Origin: Caldanaerobacter subterraneus | GTDB taxonomy: Bacteria > Bacillota > Thermoanaerobacteria > Thermoanaerobacterales > Thermoanaerobacteraceae | Direction: 5' to 3' | Assembly (NCBI RefSeq): GCF_004345675.1 | Contig: NZ_SLWU01000011.1 | Coordinates: 1 to 64,000 of the forward strand | Length of the DNA: 64,000 nt | Shown: piece by piece, positions 47,229 to 59,599 of the stretch | Position numbering within the stretch: position 1 is the first letter of the stretch | How the letters are laid out: the number at the start of each line of letters is the position of its first letter | Notes under the pieces: model-generated | The model's input: the letters and a program-made list of their open reading frames with translations, nothing else | Database searches by the model: none | What the model was told of the DNA's origin: nothing | Made by a program: the position numbers and the translations under genes

Positions 47229-48787
47229 GTAGGATTTTTTTAAGACAACCCCTGAAACTTAGTTAATTTCAGCCTTCAACTTATCATGCTTTTTTATATA
47301 ACTTGTGCATATTTTAATGCTCTTAAAACCCTATATATTGGCGTTACTTTCCCTATATTCAAAACCGTAATATTATTTATCTTTTCATTTGTAGACGTTT
47401 TAACTCTCCTTACCGCTTCTTTTATTTGCTTCTTCGTTAATTTGTAACTTCCTGCATTTATATTCTTTTTCTTGCCCCATTCTACTTCTCTTAAGTCTCC
47501 TCCATTCTTGCTAAATACCCTTAATTTCGCCATTAGTTTTAATCCTTCTCTGCTCCACCCTAATGGATTCCTGCTTAGTCTTGCTGAAAATACATGGCTT
47601 ATATGTCCTTCTGCACTGCACCCTATTACATCTTCGTCTTCACTGTATATCTTTATCCCTTCCCAATTGTTTAGTATGTATTTCTTTGCTTCTTTTATCT
47701 TCTCTTTCTCTCTCTCTTCCTCTGCTGCCTTTATTAACTCATCAAATACCTTCTTTACTCCTTCTTTATCCCCTTCATTTATTGCTCTCCATATCTTATC
47801 CCTATACTTTGGCTCTTTTGATGTAGCTTTTAATACGTATTTGTTTAAATGATATCTGTCTAGTACAAACCTTGATTTTACTATCCACTCTAATCCCTCT
47901 TTTATCCACGGTGCCCCATCTCCTGCTATGTATATCTTCTCTATCTTCTCTTCTTTGTAATTGTCTTCTATGTAATTTGCTACATCTATCCATATGTCTT
48001 CAGGTTTCTCTCCTACATATGCTTTGTAATAGACATTCTTCAGTACGTTCCTTCCGTTTTTCTCTTCTCTACCTTCATGTATGTATACTAATCGTGGAGT
48101 TTCATCTCTCCCGTCCTGTAAAGGTACATGGTCCTCGTCTGCCTCTATGTATAAACCCCTTACTTCTTTCTTTTCTTTTATTTCTCTCTTTACTTCTACT
48201 TCCCCTATTTCCCTTATTGCATTTAATACCGTCTGTTTACTTAACTCCTCTGGACATGCTTTTTTACTACTTCTCTCATATGATTCTTCTATTGCGTTTT
48301 CTACTAACTTTATCTTTACTCCCTTTTCTATCCTATCGTGCCGTCCTATCTCTAATGCATCATCCACCAAATATGTATATCTCCCATCCTCTTTAGATTT
48401 GTAATATGTCCTCTCATATTCAATATCCCCAAGGACTGTCGTTAATCTCTTTTTATCTTTCCTCTCTACTACCCATTTTTCTTTCCTTCTCTTGTCTTCT
48501 TTTATTATCCTATCTAACTCTTCAATAATTGCTTCTATTGCCTCTCTACCTAGTTTGTCCGTGAGTTCCTTTATCCTTGCTACAAGCTCTGTAATATTCA
48601 TTCCTTTGTTTAACAAATCACCAAAAATTTCTACTACTTCCTCAGTGAAATTTAGAGCATTTTGTAAGTATAATATCCTCAAAGATATGTTTTTTCACAA
48701 GAGACCCCCCTTTCTGTGATGTTTTGTTTCCAAGTTCTATTTTATCACAGGGGTTGTCTCTTGTTTTTTTCACTCAAAAAATCCTAC
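47229..48787 (-). mobile_element. ISLre2-family insertion sequence
   Basis: About 1.56 kb bounded by inverted ends GTAGGATTTTTT (47229) and AAAAAATCCTAC (48787), with a second matching block AAGACAACCCCTG inside the left end and CAGGGGTTGTCTC inside the right. It contains one transposase gene. I cannot see a clear target duplication (flanks AGATACT and GATAATT), which fits later rearrangement with the neighbouring IS110 remnant. Confidence 0.85.
47294..48682 (-). CDS. ISLre2 transposase (UPF0236 family)
   Basis: 462 residues, full length for the family, with no internal stop. Conserved-looking parts: [20 protein letters not shown] near residue 80, [16 protein letters not shown] near 180, [18 protein letters not shown] and [17 protein letters not shown] near 250-280, and [20 protein letters not shown] near 365. 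The acidic residues in EADEDH, GDGAPW and AEGH are candidates for the DDE-type triad. Highly charged coiled-coil N-terminus. The element may still be active. Confidence 0.93.
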
Positions 48788-51734: not shown

Positions 51735-51825
51735 GGGGCCTTTTGGGAAAAGATGATTTTGCGTGGAAAGAAGAGTGTTGAAGAGGCAATGAAAGAATTT
51801 GAATAAAGGACTTTTTAATAGATAA

Positions 51826-51858
51826 GGTAGGTATTTTTTAAATACCTGCCTTTATTTG
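51826..51858 (+). terminator. intrinsic terminator after gpmA
   Basis: GGTAGGTATTT pairs with AAATACCTGCC, then TTTATTTG. Confidence 0.85.
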
Positions 51859-52111: not shown

Positions 52112-53902
52112 ATGGGTAATAACAAGAAAATTGTAATCATTGGGGCCGGGTATGGGGGCTTACATGCAGCGAAATTACTGAATAAAAAATTAAAAAATAA
52201 TCCTGATATAGAAGTAACACTTATAGACAAGAAACCTTATCATACTTTGTTAACAGATTTACATGAAGTAGCTGGTTCTAGAATAGAACCTGACAGTGTC
52301 CGCATTTATTTACATAAGGTTTTTGCTGGCAAGAGAGTAAACATAATACTTGACGAAATAGAAAAAATTGATCATGAAAAACAGCAAGTGATTGGGAAAA
52401 AAGGCGCATATCAATACGATTATTTGATTTTAGGCATTGGCAGTGAGCCATGTGATTTTGGTATACCAGGTGTATTTGAATATGGCTTTAATGTAGGGAG
52501 TTTGGAGGCAGCTATTAGAACGAGGGAACACATTGAAGAAATGTTTAGAAAGGCTAGTGTAGAGAAGGATCCGGATGAAAAAAAGAAGATGCTTACTTTT
52601 GTAATAGCTGGAGCGGGATTTACAGGAATTGAGACTGCGGGTGAATTGATGGAATGGACAAAAAGTTTGTGTGATAAATATAACTTAGACCGCAGTGAAA
52701 TCAAAATTATGGTAGTAGAAGCTTTAAATACAATACTTCCCAATTTAAATGCTAAACTGGCTACTAAAGCGCAAAAGTTTTTGAATAAAAAAGGAGTAGA
52801 GGTCTTAACTAATTCCCCTATTGTGGAAGTAGCCAGGGATTATGTTGTGTTAAAAGATGGGAGAAAGATTGAGACAAAAACTTTAATATGGACATGTGGA
52901 GTTCAAGGCAATAAATGTGTTGAAAATTTTGGGCTGGAATTAAATAGACGGTGCAGAGTCCAAACAAACGAATACATGCAAGCAGTAGGAAAAGAAAACA
53001 TTTATGTGATAGGTGACTTGGCGTATTATGAAATAGATGGGAAACCTATACCTCAAGTTGTAGAGACAGCGCTGCAGTCAGCGGAAACTGCTGTTCATAA
53101 TATAGTGGCAGACATAAAAGGGGAAGAGAAAAAAACTTTTAAACCTAAATATCATGGATTTATGGTATCCATAGGAAGTAGATATGCAGTAGCAGAACTT
53201 ATGGGTGTGTCTTTGACGGGTTTTTTAGCAATGGCTATTAAGCATCTTGTGAACATGCACTACCTTTTTGGGGTAGCTGGCATTGATGCTGTGTTATCGT
53301 ACATTTACCATGAGTTCTTTGAAGTCAAAAACAATCGCTCAATATTGGGAGGACATATTGCAGCCCATGTTCCTACTTTTTGGCTTGTCCTTTTGAGAAT
53401 ATATGTAGGCGCTTTGTGGCTTATTGAAGGCATAAATAAAATACAGCAAGGATGGCTTGACCCGTCAAAAATATTTATTATAACTACCTCTGATGTATCC
53501 GGCGCAACTGCTAATGCTACTTCTGGAGCTACTGCTGTTCAAACTTTGCAGCCTCTATTAAAGGAACCGCCGGCTTTTTATAAGTGGTTTATGGATACTT
53601 TTGTAGTACCCCATGCTTTCTTATTCCAGGTCATGGTAGTATTAGCAGAGGTGGCAATAGGATTGGCTTTAATAGCGGGTTTGTTTACTTTCCTTGCATC
53701 TGCTGGTTCTATATTCTTAGCACTTAATTTCATCTTGTCAGCAATGGCAGATAAGTCAATATTGTGGTATATCTTCGCTGCTATAGCTTTAATGGGAGGA
53801 GCAGGGAGGTCTTTTGGCCTCGACTATTATGTAATTCCATGGATAAAAAATTGGTGGAAGAAGACTACCTTTGCTCGAAAAACATATCTTTATATAAGTT
53901 GA
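52112..53902 (+). CDS. ndh2: type II NADH dehydrogenase with C-terminal membrane domain (Ndh2 of FLEET)
   Basis: Transfers electrons from NADH to quinone without pumping protons. 596 residues. FAD site IIGAGYGGLHAAKLL at the N-terminus, NADH site IAGAGFTGIETAGEL near residue 168, and YVIGDLAYYE for FAD near 300. After residue 420 comes a DoxX-like membrane region of about four helices (FWLVLLRIYVGALWLIEGIN, FQVMVVLAEVAIGLALIAGL and others) instead of the short amphipathic tail of ordinary Ndh-2. This form heads extracellular electron transfer loci as in Listeria. GGAGAGG precedes ATG 52112. Confidence 0.92.
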   Translation: MGNNKKIVIIGAGYGGLHAAKLLNKKLKNNPDIEVTLIDKKPYHTLLTDLHEVAGSRIEPDSVRIYLHKVFAGKRVNIILDEIEKIDHEKQQVIGKKGAYQYDYLILGIGSEPCDFGIPGVFEYGFNVGSLEAAIRTREHIEEMFRKASVEKDPDEKKKMLTFVIAGAGFTGIETAGELMEWTKSLCDKYNLDRSEIKIMVVEALNTILPNLNAKLATKAQKFLNKKGVEVLTNSPIVEVARDYVVLKDGRKIETKTLIWTCGVQGNKCVENFGLELNRRCRVQTNEYMQAVGKENIYVIGDLAYYEIDGKPIPQVVETALQSAETAVHNIVADIKGEEKKTFKPKYHGFMVSIGSRYAVAELMGVSLTGFLAMAIKHLVNMHYLFGVAGIDAVLSYIYHEFFEVKNNRSILGGHIAAHVPTFWLVLLRIYVGALWLIEGINKIQQGWLDPSKIFIITTSDVSGATANATSGATAVQTLQPLLKEPPAFYKWFMDTFVVPHAFLFQVMVVLAEVAIGLALIAGLFTFLASAGSIFLALNFILSAMADKSILWYIFAAIALMGGAGRSFGLDYYVIPWIKNWWKKTTFARKTYLYIS

Positions 53903-53929
53903 TAAAAGTTAAAGAGAGGGCTACTTGAT

Positions 53930-54310
53930 GTGAAAAAAGGTGATATTTTTATTATACTTTTTGTAGCGGTTTTATCTGTTGGGTTGTTGGTGTTTTATAG
54001 AATATCAGCAACCCAACAGTATCACCATAAATATGCGGTAATAATGATAGATGGTAAAGTGTACAAAAAGGTGTCATTGGATGATGTAAATCATAAAGAA
54101 GAAATACCTATAGTTACAAAGCAAGGTAAAAATATATTGTTAGTCAAAAATGGGGGAGTTCAGGTTATTCATGCCGAGTGTCCGGATAAAATCTGTATGA
54201 AAGAGGGATTTATTGATAAACCAGGGCAAAGCATAGTGTGCCTCCCCTTTAGGATTGTGGTAGAGATAAGGGGGGATAAAAGTGTGGAGATCGACGAAGT
54301 TACCTATTGA
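53930..54310 (+). CDS. eetA: EetA-like protein with NusG domain II fold
   Basis: 126 residues: one N-terminal membrane helix (IFIILFVAVLSVGLLVFYRI) and an external NusG_II-type domain with AVIMIDGKVYKKVSL, HAECPDKICMKEGFI and IVCLPFRIVVEI. The three Cys are conserved in this small family. In Listeria EetA is needed for flavin-based electron transfer, with an uncertain molecular role. GTG 53930 follows GAGAGGG. It overlaps the eetB frame by 29 bp. Confidence 0.85.
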   Translation: MKKGDIFIILFVAVLSVGLLVFYRISATQQYHHKYAVIMIDGKVYKKVSLDDVNHKEEIPIVTKQGKNILLVKNGGVQVIHAECPDKICMKEGFIDKPGQSIVCLPFRIVVEIRGDKSVEIDEVTY

Positions 54311-54833
54311 ATATACAAATATGTCCAGGACCAAGAAAATGGTTTTTTTGTCAATACTAGTTTCTACTTCATTGATTTTATATATTATAGAAGGAATGCT
54401 GCCTGTTCCTTTTATTGCTCCTGGTGCTAAATTAGGCCTTGCAAATATAATCACTGTTACTTCTTTGTATTTATTTGGTTTTATTGATACATTAATTGTT
54501 CTCATTGTGAGAATACTATTAGCTACTTTTTTTGCTTCTTCGCCTTCTACCTTTTTCTACAGTTTAGGAGGGGGCTTGTTAAGTCTTGTTGTTATGTATC
54601 TTGTCAAAAACATTGGGAAAAATCATGTTAGTGAAGTAGGAGTAAGTGTTTCAGGGGGAGTATTTCACAATATTGGGCAGATGTTGGTGGCTTCTGCAAT
54701 AGTTCAAAATATAAAGATAATGATATATCTGCCTGTGTTGATGATAGCAGGGATAGGAACTGGTATCTTTGTGGGTTTATCTTCTAAATTTCTTTTAAAA
54801 CACTGGAACAAATTAAAAATATTAAAATACTAA
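54282..54833 (+). CDS. eetB: EetB-like Gx transporter family membrane protein
   Basis: 183 residues, about five helices, of the family often labelled heptaprenyl diphosphate synthase component I. Key motif PFIAPGAKLGLANIITV near residue 42, and GGVFHNIGQMLVASAIV near 125. In Listeria the homologue EetB is required for extracellular electron transfer. GTG 54282 has AGGGGGG upstream and lies within the end of eetA. Proximity to the polyprenyl synthase also fits an isoprenoid role. Confidence 0.85.
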   Translation: MWRSTKLPIEYTNMSRTKKMVFLSILVSTSLILYIIEGMLPVPFIAPGAKLGLANIITVTSLYLFGFIDTLIVLIVRILLATFFASSPSTFFYSLGGGLLSLVVMYLVKNIGKNHVSEVGVSVSGGVFHNIGQMLVASAIVQNIKIMIYLPVLMIAGIGTGIFVGLSSKFLLKHWNKLKILKY

Positions 54834-54864
54834 ATTTTTCTTGATAAAGGTTAAAGGTGGTTAA

Positions 54865-55833
54865 ATGGATAAGTTTTGGAATGACAATTTAGAGGTAAAA
54901 GAAGAACTTGTAGAAGTTGTAAAAATCATGAAAAAGGGTGTAAAAAGTTCAAACAAATTAATTAGCGATATACTACTAGATATGGTAAATAATAGTGGCA
55001 AAATGTTAAGGCCTGCTTTTGTAATTATATCGGCTAAATTTGGAAATTATGATAGAAAAAAGATATTACCTTTAGCAGCTGCTATTGAGATGCTTCACAT
55101 GGCGACTTTAGTGCATGACGATATAATTGACAATGCTTTAATAAGGCGCAGTAAACCCACTATTCAGGCAGAATATGGTAAAGATTATGCAGTGTTTATT
55201 GGAGATTTTCTTTTCTCTCAAAGTTTTTTGCTTTTATCAGATAATATCAATGTTGCGAATTTAAAAAAAGTCTCTAAAGTGGTTTCAAGAATATGCAAAG
55301 GAGAGATTGCTCAATTTGAAAGCCGATATGACATAAATATTACAATAAGCGATTATTTAAAAAGAATAGCTGCAAAAACTGCTGCTCTCTTTGCTTTAAG
55401 CTTTTATGTGGGAGCTTATGAAAGCAACTGTGGAGAAGAGTTGTCCAAAGTATTGGCTAGTATAGGCTATAATATTGGAATAGCTTTTCAAATTATAGAT
55501 GATATTTTAGACTATACTGGGGAAGAAAGTGTTGTGGGGAAGCCTTTGTGTAATGATATACGACAGGGTGTCTTTACACTTCCTTTAATATATTCTTTAG
55601 AAAGAAATAGAGATGAAAAAATTATATCGTTGATAAAAAAGAGAAATTATTGTGAGGATGACATAAAACGCATTGTTGCATTTGTTCAACAAAATGGTGG
55701 GATAACCCAATCAAAAATGTTAGCAGAGAAGTATACTAAAAAAGCTTTTGACAAAATAGCTATGTTAAAAGATTCTCCACCAAAACAAATTTTGATTGAT
55801 GTGACGACTAAGCTTTTATATAGAAATTACTAA
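54865..55833 (+). CDS. dmkB: polyprenyl diphosphate synthase (DmkB type)
   Basis: Builds the isoprenoid side chain of a quinone. 322 residues. First Asp-rich motif LVHDDIIDNALIRRSKPT near residue 87, second FQIIDDILDYTGEESVVGKP near 210. Long-chain synthases of this type make heptaprenyl-like chains. In the FLEET locus it supplies DmkA. GGTGG precedes ATG 54865; 31 bp after eetB, so same transcript. Confidence 0.92.
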   Translation: MDKFWNDNLEVKEELVEVVKIMKKGVKSSNKLISDILLDMVNNSGKMLRPAFVIISAKFGNYDRKKILPLAAAIEMLHMATLVHDDIIDNALIRRSKPTIQAEYGKDYAVFIGDFLFSQSFLLLSDNINVANLKKVSKVVSRICKGEIAQFESRYDINITISDYLKRIAAKTAALFALSFYVGAYESNCGEELSKVLASIGYNIGIAFQIIDDILDYTGEESVVGKPLCNDIRQGVFTLPLIYSLERNRDEKIISLIKKRNYCEDDIKRIVAFVQQNGGITQSKMLAEKYTKKAFDKIAMLKDSPPKQILIDVTTKLLYRNY

Positions 55834-55870
55834 AATTGGTTAAAGGCCTTATTCTTGGAGGAGTTATTAT

Positions 55871-56896
55871 ATGAAAAAAATTACAGCATTTTTTGGTATT
55901 TTTCTACTGATATTTATATTTTCTGGGTGTTCAAATAAAAATTCTCAACCTATATCTGATACTAAATTTGCACTGGATACTTATTGTACTTTGACTGTAT
56001 ACGACAAGGTTCCCAAAAAAGTATTGGATGATGGATTTAAAGCCATTGAAGATATAGAAAAGAAAATGAGCGTCACTATAGAGGATAGTGAAGTAAGTGA
56101 AATTAATAAAAACGCAGGGATTAGACCCGTAAAAGTGTCTCCTGATACTTTTTACGTTATAAAAAAAGCAATACATTTTTCTGAAATTGAAAAAGGTTAT
56201 TTTGATATCACGGTAGGTCCTATAGTAAATCTTTGGAATATTGGTACCGATAAAGCCAGAGTGCCTTCAGCGGAAGAAATAAAAGCTAAACTTCCTCTTG
56301 TAAACTATAAAAATATAGTTTTAGATGAAAAGAATATGACAGTTATGTTAAAAGATAAAGGCATGAGCATAGACTTGGGAGGTATTGCGAAAGGCTATGC
56401 TGCAGATAAAGTGGCAGAAGTTTTAAAAAAAGAAGGTGTAAAGCATGCTATTATAAATTTGGGCGGTGATGTCCTTACAATTGGTACAAAACCTGATGGA
56501 ACTAATTGGCGTGTAGGGATTCAAACTCCTTTTAAACCCAGAGGTGAATATTTTGGGATAGTAGAGGTTGCTGAAAAAGCTGTCGTCACTTCAGGGGTAT
56601 ATGAAAGATATTTTGAAAAAGACGGAAAATTATATCATCATATATTAAATCCTTTTACCGGTTATCCTGCGGATAATCACTTATATAGCGTTACTATAAT
56701 AACAGATACTTCTATAGATGGTGATGCACTAGCAAAAGTTTTTGTTATGGGTTTAGATGAGGGTATGAGGGTTGCAGAAAATTTACCTGGAGTAGAAGCA
56801 ATATTTGTGACAGATGATAAAAAAGTGTATATAACTTCTGGGTTAAAAGGAAATTTTAGGATTACCGATCCAGAATATACCTTAATGACTAAGTAA
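55871..56896 (+). CDS. fmnB: FAD:protein FMN transferase lipoprotein (ApbE/FmnB)
   Basis: Attaches FMN covalently to Thr in target proteins outside the cell. 341 residues. Lipobox IFSGC after the signal helix anchors it to the membrane. ApbE motifs: FALDTYCTLTVYD, VSPDTFYVIKKAIHFSE, SIDLGGIAKGYAADKV, INLGGDVLTIG and SIDGDALAKVFVMG with the Mg2+ ligands. The likely substrate is the FMN-binding lipoprotein two genes downstream. GGAGG precedes the ATG. Confidence 0.94.
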   Translation: MKKITAFFGIFLLIFIFSGCSNKNSQPISDTKFALDTYCTLTVYDKVPKKVLDDGFKAIEDIEKKMSVTIEDSEVSEINKNAGIRPVKVSPDTFYVIKKAIHFSEIEKGYFDITVGPIVNLWNIGTDKARVPSAEEIKAKLPLVNYKNIVLDEKNMTVMLKDKGMSIDLGGIAKGYAADKVAEVLKKEGVKHAIINLGGDVLTIGTKPDGTNWRVGIQTPFKPRGEYFGIVEVAEKAVVTSGVYERYFEKDGKLYHHILNPFTGYPADNHLYSVTIITDTSIDGDALAKVFVMGLDEGMRVAENLPGVEAIFVTDDKKVYITSGLKGNFRITDPEYTLMTK

Positions 56897-56920
56897 TTCT
56901 ATTTTTCTGGAGGAAGTTCT

Positions 56921-57850
56921 ATGGATAAAAAGGAATTTTTAAGGATATGGAAGGGTTTTTGGCAGTTGGCAGATCCTAAGATATGGATAGCATCTACTGT
57001 GCCTATGTTTGTAGCGGCTGCCTATGCTTATGGTAAAACGGGAGAGTTTGACTTATTCTGGTTTGTTGTCTCAGTTATAGGCATTTACCTTATTGAGATA
57101 GGTAAAAATGCAGTCAATGAATTTATTGATTATAAATCTGGGGTAGATACTTTTGTAACTCCGGATAAAAGAACTCCTTTTAGTGGAGGGAAGAAAACTA
57201 TAGTCGAAGGTAAACTTACAGTCGAAGAAACAGTAATTATTGCCTTAGTAACAATACTTGTAGCTTGTGCTATAGGGCTAGCTATTGTCATATTTAGAGA
57301 ACCTCGCGTATTTATTGTAGGGCTTGCTGGAGTTTTAATAGCAGTTTTTTATAGTTTGCCTCCTTTTAAATTAAGCTACAGAGGCTTTGGAGAAATAGCT
57401 GTAGGAATAACTTTTGGGCCATTGATAGTTATAGGGATGTATTTAGTGATGACTCATCATGTAAGTATAGATGTTTTATTAGTTTCTTTGCCTATAGGGT
57501 TTTTAATAACCAATGTTCTTTGGATAAACCAGTATCCAGATTATGAAGCAGACCTCAAAGGACATAAATACAATTTGTTAGTTAGAATTGGCAAACAAAA
57601 AGGAGTGATAGTGTACGCATCTCTTTATATAGCAGCCTATCTGTCTCTTGCTTTAATAGCTTTAGTTACTAAAAATCCAATATGGCTTATGACCTTTATA
57701 ACAATTCCACTAGCTGTGAGGTCTGTAAATGTTGCCCGCAAATATTATGACGAAATACCAAAGCTGGTAAAAGCAAATGCCGATACGATAAAAATATATC
57801 AAATTGTAGGACTCATAATGATTTTATCTTCCTTGGTATCAAGATTTTAG
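56921..57850 (+). CDS. dmkA: UbiA-family prenyltransferase (DmkA type)
   Basis: Membrane prenyltransferase, 309 residues with eight or nine helices. First Asp motif NAVNEFIDYKSGVDTF (NxxxD) near residue 67, second NQYPDYEADLKGHK near 200. Relatives (MenA) prenylate 1,4-dihydroxy-2-naphthoate to make demethylmenaquinone. Together with DmkB this would produce a dedicated quinone pool; no men genes are in the window, so the naphthoate source is open. GGAGGAAG precedes ATG 56921. Confidence 0.9.
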   Translation: MDKKEFLRIWKGFWQLADPKIWIASTVPMFVAAAYAYGKTGEFDLFWFVVSVIGIYLIEIGKNAVNEFIDYKSGVDTFVTPDKRTPFSGGKKTIVEGKLTVEETVIIALVTILVACAIGLAIVIFREPRVFIVGLAGVLIAVFYSLPPFKLSYRGFGEIAVGITFGPLIVIGMYLVMTHHVSIDVLLVSLPIGFLITNVLWINQYPDYEADLKGHKYNLLVRIGKQKGVIVYASLYIAAYLSLALIALVTKNPIWLMTFITIPLAVRSVNVARKYYDEIPKLVKANADTIKIYQIVGLIMILSSLVSRF

Positions 57851-57964
57851 GTTTTATTAAGATATTTTTTAGAAGGGAGGTGAGCGAAAAACATTGATAT
57901 TATTTTAACAAAACAGTATAATATTTTTACACAAAATTTGTATTAAAAGGGAGGCTGTGATTTT

Positions 57965-58381
57965 ATGAGAAGGATTTTAACACTCGTATTAGTGGGATTA
58001 TTTTTGGTGTTTGCAATAAGTGGCTGTTCTTCTAAAACAGCAACTGGTACTTACAAAGATGGTACTTACAAAGCGGAACAACCTAATTTTGACGAGCACG
58101 GATGGAAAGGATAGATTGAGATAACTGTAAAAGACGGTAAAATAGCATCCGTGACTTATAATGAAGTAAATAAGGATGGGCAGTTAAAGAGAGATGACCA
58201 GCAATATGCAGAAAATATGAAGGCTAAGTCAGGTGTTACACCAAAAGAAGCATTTGAGAAATTGGAACAGCAGCTTATTGAGAAGCAAGACCCTGATAAA
58301 GTAGATACTGTTACTGGAGCTACACATACATCCCAAACTTTTAAAGAATTAGCTGCAGAGGCTTTAAAGAGTGCAAAGTAA
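57965..58381 (+). CDS. pplA: FMN-binding lipoprotein (PplA-like) with in-frame UAG
   Basis: 138 codons if the TAG at 58112-58114 (codon 50) is read through. Signal peptide and lipobox AISGC are intact. Before the TAG: FDEHGWKG; after it: IEITVKDGKIASVTYNEVNK and DTVTGATHTSQTFKEL, where DTVTGAT is the flavinylation motif with Thr as FMN acceptor. The TAG falls in a normally continuous strand, one base from a Tyr codon. Compared with Listeria PplA (two domains) this has a single FMN-binding domain. GGGAGG precedes the ATG. It could be a nonsense allele, a sequence error, or suppressed. Confidence 0.8.
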
Positions 58382-58403
58382 TTTTTGAGTAGATAGAGAA
58401 AAT

Positions 58404-58441
58404 AAAGGGGACAGTTTTTAAAGCTGTCCCCTTTAAAATTT
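58404..58441 (+). terminator. terminator of the FLEET operon
   Basis: AAAGGGGACAG pairs perfectly with CTGTCCCCTTT (11 bp), then AAAATTTATT. The core GGGGACAG recalls the REP sequences. Confidence 0.8.
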
Positions 58442-58521: not shown

Positions 58522-58691
58522 TCACCTGTTTATTAGTTCTTGTTCTATTGCTGACAATTCTGTAGAAGTTATTCCATCTATGACATCTTTAAATTTTTCT
58601 TTAACTTCTGCAACACTTTTACCTCTATGAAGTTCTTTTATAACTTCTTTTAAAAGCTTCTGTATTCCCTATTATTAATAAGTTCACTCAT
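58522..58691 (-). pseudogene. 5' fossil of a DUF438-family gene
   Basis: Minus strand: start MSELINNREYRSF, then a one-base frameshift, then KEVIKELHRGKSVAEVKEKF and STELSAIEQELINR before TGA. This is the N-terminal DUF438 pattern as I remember it; the hemerythrin and PAS parts that normally follow are absent. Confidence 0.65.
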
Positions 58692-58981
58692 AGGAAATAC
58701 CTGGACCTCATAAGATACAAGAAATAGGAGCTGGATTTATTCCTGACACATTAAATCTTGACGTTATCGATGAAATTATAAAGGTAAAAGAGAGAGATGC
58801 TTTTGAAATGTCAATGAAACTTGCAAAACAAGAAGGAATTCTTTGTGGTATTTCTTCAGGCGCAAATGTTTTTGCGGCAGTTGAAGTTGCAAATCGCCTC
58901 GGGAGAGGAAAACGAGTTGTAACAGTACTACCTGATACTGGGGAAAGATATTTAAGTATGCACAAATTTTTTGAATATTGA
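58692..58981 (+). pseudogene. 3' fragment of a cysteine synthase gene
   Basis: In frame from about 58698: [40 protein letters not shown] and [20 protein letters not shown]. These are the PLP phosphate loop and C-terminal blocks of CysK-type O-acetylserine sulfhydrylase. About two thirds of the gene, including the PLP Lys, is missing. It begins right where the DUF438 fossil ends, marking a deletion join. Confidence 0.85.
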
Positions 58982-58997
58982 ACGATTATATACGGCT

Positions 58998-59121
58998 GTA
59001 TCCTGGAAAAATTTGCGTTGCTGATACTCCTGCTCATTGCTTTAGTTGTATAACTGCTAGGATAAATAGTATTGGAAGAGTAGTTTCAGAAAGTTTTGGT
59101 TATAGAAAAAAGAGAGTGTAA
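58998..59121 (+). pseudogene. unidentified short coding remnant
   Basis: A 40-codon open stretch without start codon: YPGKICVADTPAHCFSC, then ITARINSIGRVVSESFGYRK, ending KRV-stop just before a terminator. Cys/His spacing suggests a metal site. I cannot name the source gene; it could be an alternative frame of nothing. Confidence 0.35.
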
Positions 59122-59140
59122 AATCTGCACTCTCTTTTTT
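59109..59140. terminator. intrinsic terminator
   Basis: AGAGAGTG pairs with CACTCTCT followed by TTTTT; A residues upstream make it usable from both sides, including for the minus-strand gene next to it. Confidence 0.85.
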
Positions 59141-59145
59141 ACAGA

Positions 59146-59322
59146 TTATTTTGCAGAGTAATAGCATCTTTTAGGAGACATTATTAAATCTTCTTTTTTT
59201 AATTCTTTAATAGCCTTTTCAACTTCTTTTTTGTCAAGGCCTGATTTTTCTACAATATCACTAGGACGCAGAGGCTTTGAAGATTCTCTTAAAGTTTTTA
59301 ATACTATCTCTTTGGCATCCAT
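59146..59322 (-). CDS. 58-residue winged-helix protein
   Basis: A small basic protein beginning MDAKEIVLKTLRESSKPLRP, then SDIVEKSGLDKKEVEKAIKE and a wing ending KRCYYSAK. This is a complete minimal winged helix with a single Cys in the wing. It is too small for a sensor domain, so it may act with a partner or be a FeoC-like or MarR-like minimal regulator. AGGAGG precedes ATG 59322. The upstream region 59345-59400 on the same strand has an AT-rich dyad (TTGATATTATAATTAGAATC) that may be an operator. Confidence 0.8.
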   Translation of the reverse strand: MDAKEIVLKTLRESSKPLRPSDIVEKSGLDKKEVEKAIKELKKEDLIMSPKRCYYSAK

Positions 59323-59599
59323 TTTATTTTTCCTCCTTAATACACATCACAATTTTATATTGATTACGATTCTAATTATAATATCAATTCTTATTTTTGA
59401 CAAGAACTTCTAAAATAATTTTTTAACAATAAAATTAAGATTTCACTGGCTTCCCCAACTACTGCTTTTGCAGCTTTTCAACAAAGGGTATAACTAAAGA
59501 TTTAATTTATTTAATTTATTATACAAAAGGGGTTTATCAAAAATCTGTGATTATTGTCACTTATTATACTAAAAAAAGGCAAATTATATACAAATACAG

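Follow-up and report, generated by a model that had tools for sequence, protein, structure and literature searches.

The flavin-based electron transfer (FLEET) system of Listeria monocytogenes makes use of EetB, an ECF-S-like FAD exporter subunit, which together with its ECF-T membrane partner FmnA exports FAD for FmnB, while deletion of eetA is without phenotype (PMC9973259). The structure of Listeria FmnB is described in PMC8906456. Lactiplantibacillus plantarum reduces iron largely through Ndh2 and PplA when the process depends on DHNA, and through Ndh2 and EetA when it depends on flavin (PMC9888254); this organism lacks a full quinone pathway and requires exogenous DHNA (PMC10746273). FLEET loci are often labelled complete from gene lists and then used for the prediction of iron reduction. 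The locus considered here lies in a window of 64,000 nucleotides on one contig (C11) of a draft genome with 79 contigs and an estimated completeness of 100%, whose placement in Thermoanaerobacter supports the supposed setting of the locus. Its gene list conceals a nonsense codon, a decayed second copy and the lack of any sign of a quinone precursor pathway.

A sequence-only reading of the window had recognised seven genes in a row on one strand as a complete FLEET-type locus (Table 1). Six of these genes are open, and all six fall into the expected families in Pfam and NCBIfam, upholding the FLEET-type identity. The product of ndh2 combines Pyr_redox_2 with DoxD at residues 480-586 (Pfam), and its residues 1-396 match NDH-2 enzymes in a search among solved structures. 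The others are NusG_II for eetA (E=5e-34), Hpre_diP_synt_I for eetB (E=1e-49), polyprenyl_synt for dmkB (E=3e-68), ApbE for fmnB (E=4e-99) and UbiA for dmkA (E=1e-34). The best PDB match of FmnB is 7esa (319 bits), in an FMN transferase group (7esa/7esb) that we take to be Listeria FmnB. By the ORF list and Pfam, eetA and eetB are adjacent, and both families for demethylmenaquinone, dmkA and dmkB, are present, their substrates being predicted. The gene block recurs in five congeners in the order that had been described, and gene set and order are therefore far beyond chance. The locus genes are under purifying selection, with dN/dS of ~0.05-0.15 against diverged homologues, and such low values imply that they were functional through most of their history. 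Judged by predicted families, the window locus belongs to the Listeria-type FLEET systems.

Table 1. Features of the locus, in window coordinates
Feature	Position	Strand	Remarks
Terminator-like hairpin upstream of locus, end of gpm unit	51824..51852	+	consensus match only
ndh2, type II NADH dehydrogenase with C-terminal membrane (DoxD-like) domain	52112..53902	+	596 aa, intact
Approximate left recombination junction inside ndh2	52850..53000		identity to Bu09 climbs from 80-88% to 99-100%
eetA, NusG_II domain, membrane-anchored	53930..54310	+	126 aa, intact
eetB, PF07456	54282..54833	+	183 aa, intact; GTG start overlaps eetA
dmkB-like polyprenyl diphosphate synthase	54865..55833	+	322 aa, intact
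fmnB, lipoprotein ApbE flavin transferase	55871..56896	+	341 aa, intact
dmkA, UbiA/MenA-type prenyltransferase	56921..57850	+	309 aa, intact
Promoter-like match, best of region, 42 bases 5' of pplA start	57894..57922	+	11/12; match count in region not above chance
pplA pseudogene: lipoprotein signal and 49 codons, TAG, FMN_bind domain	57965..58381	+	start ATG 57965
In-frame TAG	58112..58114	+	glutamine codon in six homologues (five congeners and contig C9 copy)
TGAT flavinylation motif	58313..58324	+	3' of stop; motif from PMC8238504
Terminator-like hairpin after pplA	58403..58435	+	15 pairs

The seventh gene, pplA, is broken, and the locus cannot be called complete. A TAG, flagged by two whole-genome searches with different queries, closes the frame after 49 residues, ~200 bases 5' of the flavinylation motif, and the part beyond it (58115-58381) has no signal peptide but includes both FMN_bind and the motif itself, TGATHTS. 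The truncated product would still carry the lipoprotein signal but lack the flavin domain. In the alignment, pplA homologues are open in five congeners and on contig C9 of the same genome, which thus holds the intact homologue of a flavinylated PplA lipoprotein that the window locus lacks. The single-domain PplA of the earlier description is an apt account of the intact homologues; the window copy itself had been read straight through its stop. Full PplA could still come from this copy if the TAG were suppressed or recoded, and the frame 3' of it is open and conserved up to the natural stop. This is highly improbable: the glutamine codon in the other six homologues speaks against a conserved recoding, and an open downstream frame is expected of a young lesion regardless. 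A sequencing or assembly error in an otherwise complete locus is a stronger candidate, albeit an unlikely one. The record is a draft, frameshifts in the essential obg gene of two further assemblies (G001 and G008) show that errors occur in such records, and apart from the stop, pplA differs from its homologue in Thermoanaerobacter sp. Bu09 by only 1 non-synonymous against 4 synonymous changes. Against this, the change is a substitution and no homopolymer slip, and the control genes gpm, obg and rnfG are open in the window genome. Our preferred reading is that a nonsense mutation recently inactivated the window pplA.

The copy on contig C9 (L008) has 81-84% nucleotide identity to that of the window and is likewise not intact. 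Its pplA, fmnB and eetB are open, dmkB has a 92-base deletion, dmkA carries a stop plus frameshifts, eetA is a fragment and ndh2 is absent. An IS110-type transposase, split into short ORFs, is found beside the truncated end of this copy (L008:8308-9505). In the window genome, FMN_bind occurs in only three places (rnfG, the C9 pplA and the broken window pplA), the only two ApbE genes are the two fmnB copies, and eetB was found only in the locus copies. All of the predicted FLEET proteins are encoded only when the window and C9 copies are pooled, and joint use of the two, with C9 complementing the window locus, would be the corollary. In trees of eetB, fmnB and pplA, the C9 copy is sister to the clade of window and Bu09 (bootstrap 96-97). 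The notion that C9 represents the ancestral copy was rejected on the strength of these three trees, and also because the window copy occupies the shared site adjoining gpm.

The suggested search for the locus across Thermoanaerobacter found it in six of ten genomes, adjoining gpm in 6/6. Genome searches found no second copy in T. wiegelii (G001), T. thermocopriae (G008), Bu09 (G007), G002 or G004. Fully intact loci are present only in G002 and Bu09. In G004, possibly T. pseudethanolicus 39E, ndh2 has a 5-base deletion (AGAAA x3 to x2, L056) at a simple-sequence stretch near codon 155, dmkB a 1-base deletion, and dmkA is replaced by sequence resembling an IS element. The ndh2 of T. wiegelii is frameshifted (A7 to A6) at the same simple-sequence spot, and T. 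thermocopriae has frameshifts in ndh2, eetB and fmnB. As the essential control gene obg is also frameshifted in both of these records (L093 and L091, respectively), their locus breaks may be sequencing errors; some of the other breaks in the genus are secure. Phase variation of ndh2 near codon 155 was set aside for the same reason. Across the order, an ndh2 homologue is present in 17 of 24 genomes; two members of another family (G010 and G011) hold most of the gene set at 66-78% identity, and other genomes show divergent arrangements.

The window locus also bears signs of transfer. Identity to Bu09 stands at 97-100% over a block of 5.5 kb (~53.0-58.5 kb), as against 77-88% just upstream. Outside the locus and in the 5' half of its ndh2, Bu09 is 88-100% identical to G001 and G002, whereas from inside ndh2 to just past pplA it is 74-90% identical to these genomes and 97-100% to the window; at obg, every congener shares 76-78% identity with the window genome. 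The simplest reading of these identities is that the Bu09 allele was replaced by one from the window's lineage in a recent transfer towards Bu09. The Bu09 record is a MAG, and chimerism may instead account for the pattern. Since the Bu09 pplA is intact, the stop probably arose after the transfer. Downstream of the locus, two stretches within 58525-59492 share 92-93% identity with T. wiegelii and G002, as against ~80% for gpm and the locus, possibly marking another exchange. This region contains a pseudogene remnant in which an enzyme of the PALP family (cysteine synthase-like) is reduced to a C-terminal piece with no start (58694-58981). Elsewhere in the window (47294-48682) lies a UPF0236 protein, of a family presumably associated with ISLre2-type transposases.

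A different view of the decay is that the locus is being lost as an electron-export path, with selection keeping a flavinylation module (eetB, fmnB, pplA) that also serves Rnf, and the quinone module (ndh2, dmkA, dmkB) being expendable. Consistent with this, C9 and G004 decayed independently, each losing ndh2, dmkB and dmkA and keeping eetB, fmnB and pplA; the window genome and G004 both have an intact rnfG and no other ApbE; no eetB adjoins rnf in the window genome; and eetB often colocalises with Rnf in Clostridia (PMC9973259). Nevertheless, the quinone module of the window copy is intact and under purifying selection, no rnfG was seen in three locus-bearing genomes (G001, G002 and G007), and a length-weighted shuffle gives ~0.03 for both loci sparing the three genes in a test that was picked post hoc. 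We consider this view doubtful; the retention pattern gives no more than a lead that Rnf is a further reason for keeping the flavinylation half. The stricter proposal that FmnB is kept only for Rnf was rejected, as three genomes carry the locus without a match to rnfG. The rnfCDGEAB cluster of the window genome lies on contig C1 and is followed by a NusG_II (EetA-like) protein (L007:580-6019); neither apbE nor eetB was found beside these rnf genes. A broader and rather speculative idea, to which we give little credence, would have one electron-export system divided between two loci that have diverged and are broken in complementary ways (C11 providing everything except pplA, and C9 just eetB, fmnB and pplA), with the flavinylation half elsewhere in the genus outlasting the quinone half by also maturing the Rnf complex.

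On balance, we think it probable that the window holds the Listeria-type FLEET locus in a Thermoanaerobacter form, with its own pplA recently inactivated by the nonsense mutation, in a genome that has an intact pplA in the partly decayed C9 copy. What the sequences show directly is the gene content, the TAG, the additional copy on C9, purifying selection on the genes and recent transfer of the block. Any route to acceptors outside the cell requires a quinone, a point absent from the sequence-only reading. Neither MenD (no match above the cut-off) nor PF02621 of the futalosine pathway (no match) was found in the ten genus genomes, and DHNA therefore probably comes from outside the cell, making a dependence on exogenous DHNA like that of L. 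plantarum likely. How electrons flow, where the quinone comes from and how C9 complements the window locus we infer by analogy with Listeria and L. plantarum. Electrons taken from NADH by Ndh2 would go to DMK, a prenylated naphthoquinone that DmkA and DmkB would build from scavenged DHNA. EetB would help FAD export, FmnB would attach FMN to PplA and probably also to RnfG, and PplA, from the C9 copy only, would hand electrons to extracellular acceptors. With only the window pplA lost, a flavin-dependent route might persist, and the C9 pplA may cover the rest. Counting against this account, an assembly error may have produced the TAG in a draft of 79 contigs, and, given the ongoing decay in the genus, the pathway may no longer be working in this organism.

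The window locus is thus real and of a known kind and is not complete, with a role in electron transfer that is predicted from its families. As in Listeria monocytogenes, the ndh2, eetA, eetB, dmkA, dmkB, fmnB and pplA families share one cluster, and 7esa is the best solved match of its FmnB. It differs from Listeria in its broken pplA and in its single-domain intact homologues (the NCBIfam Listeria-type PplA model has 302 positions, of which both window pplA pieces match part only), in the lack of a MenD match above the cut-off in its genome, and in the cluster's lack of fmnA, no such ECF-T ORF being found within 51.7-58.5 kb of the ORF list. The sequence-only reading had named this gene a flavin importer; its product instead joins EetB as the ECF-T component of a flavin exporter (PMC9973259). 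L. plantarum is likewise a fermenter with the locus and an incomplete menaquinone pathway that uses exogenous DHNA (PMC10746273), but there DHNA-dependent iron reduction draws largely on a functional pplA (PMC9888254), whereas the window pplA is interrupted. Clostridial Rnf systems with EetA/EetB are resembled by the rnf cluster and NusG_II protein of the window genome, which form a separate locus with a different electron path. The five Thermoanaerobacter congeners share gene order and site with the window and differ from its genome in showing no second copy, with various genes broken in several. Fe(III) reduction has been reported for T. pseudethanolicus 39E (PMC4595116). Should G004 be that strain, iron would be reduced in the genus without an intact FLEET locus, and the locus would be an unsafe trait marker. 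With some genes broken and others kept by nature, the genus provides a ready-made test of what parts the system needs.
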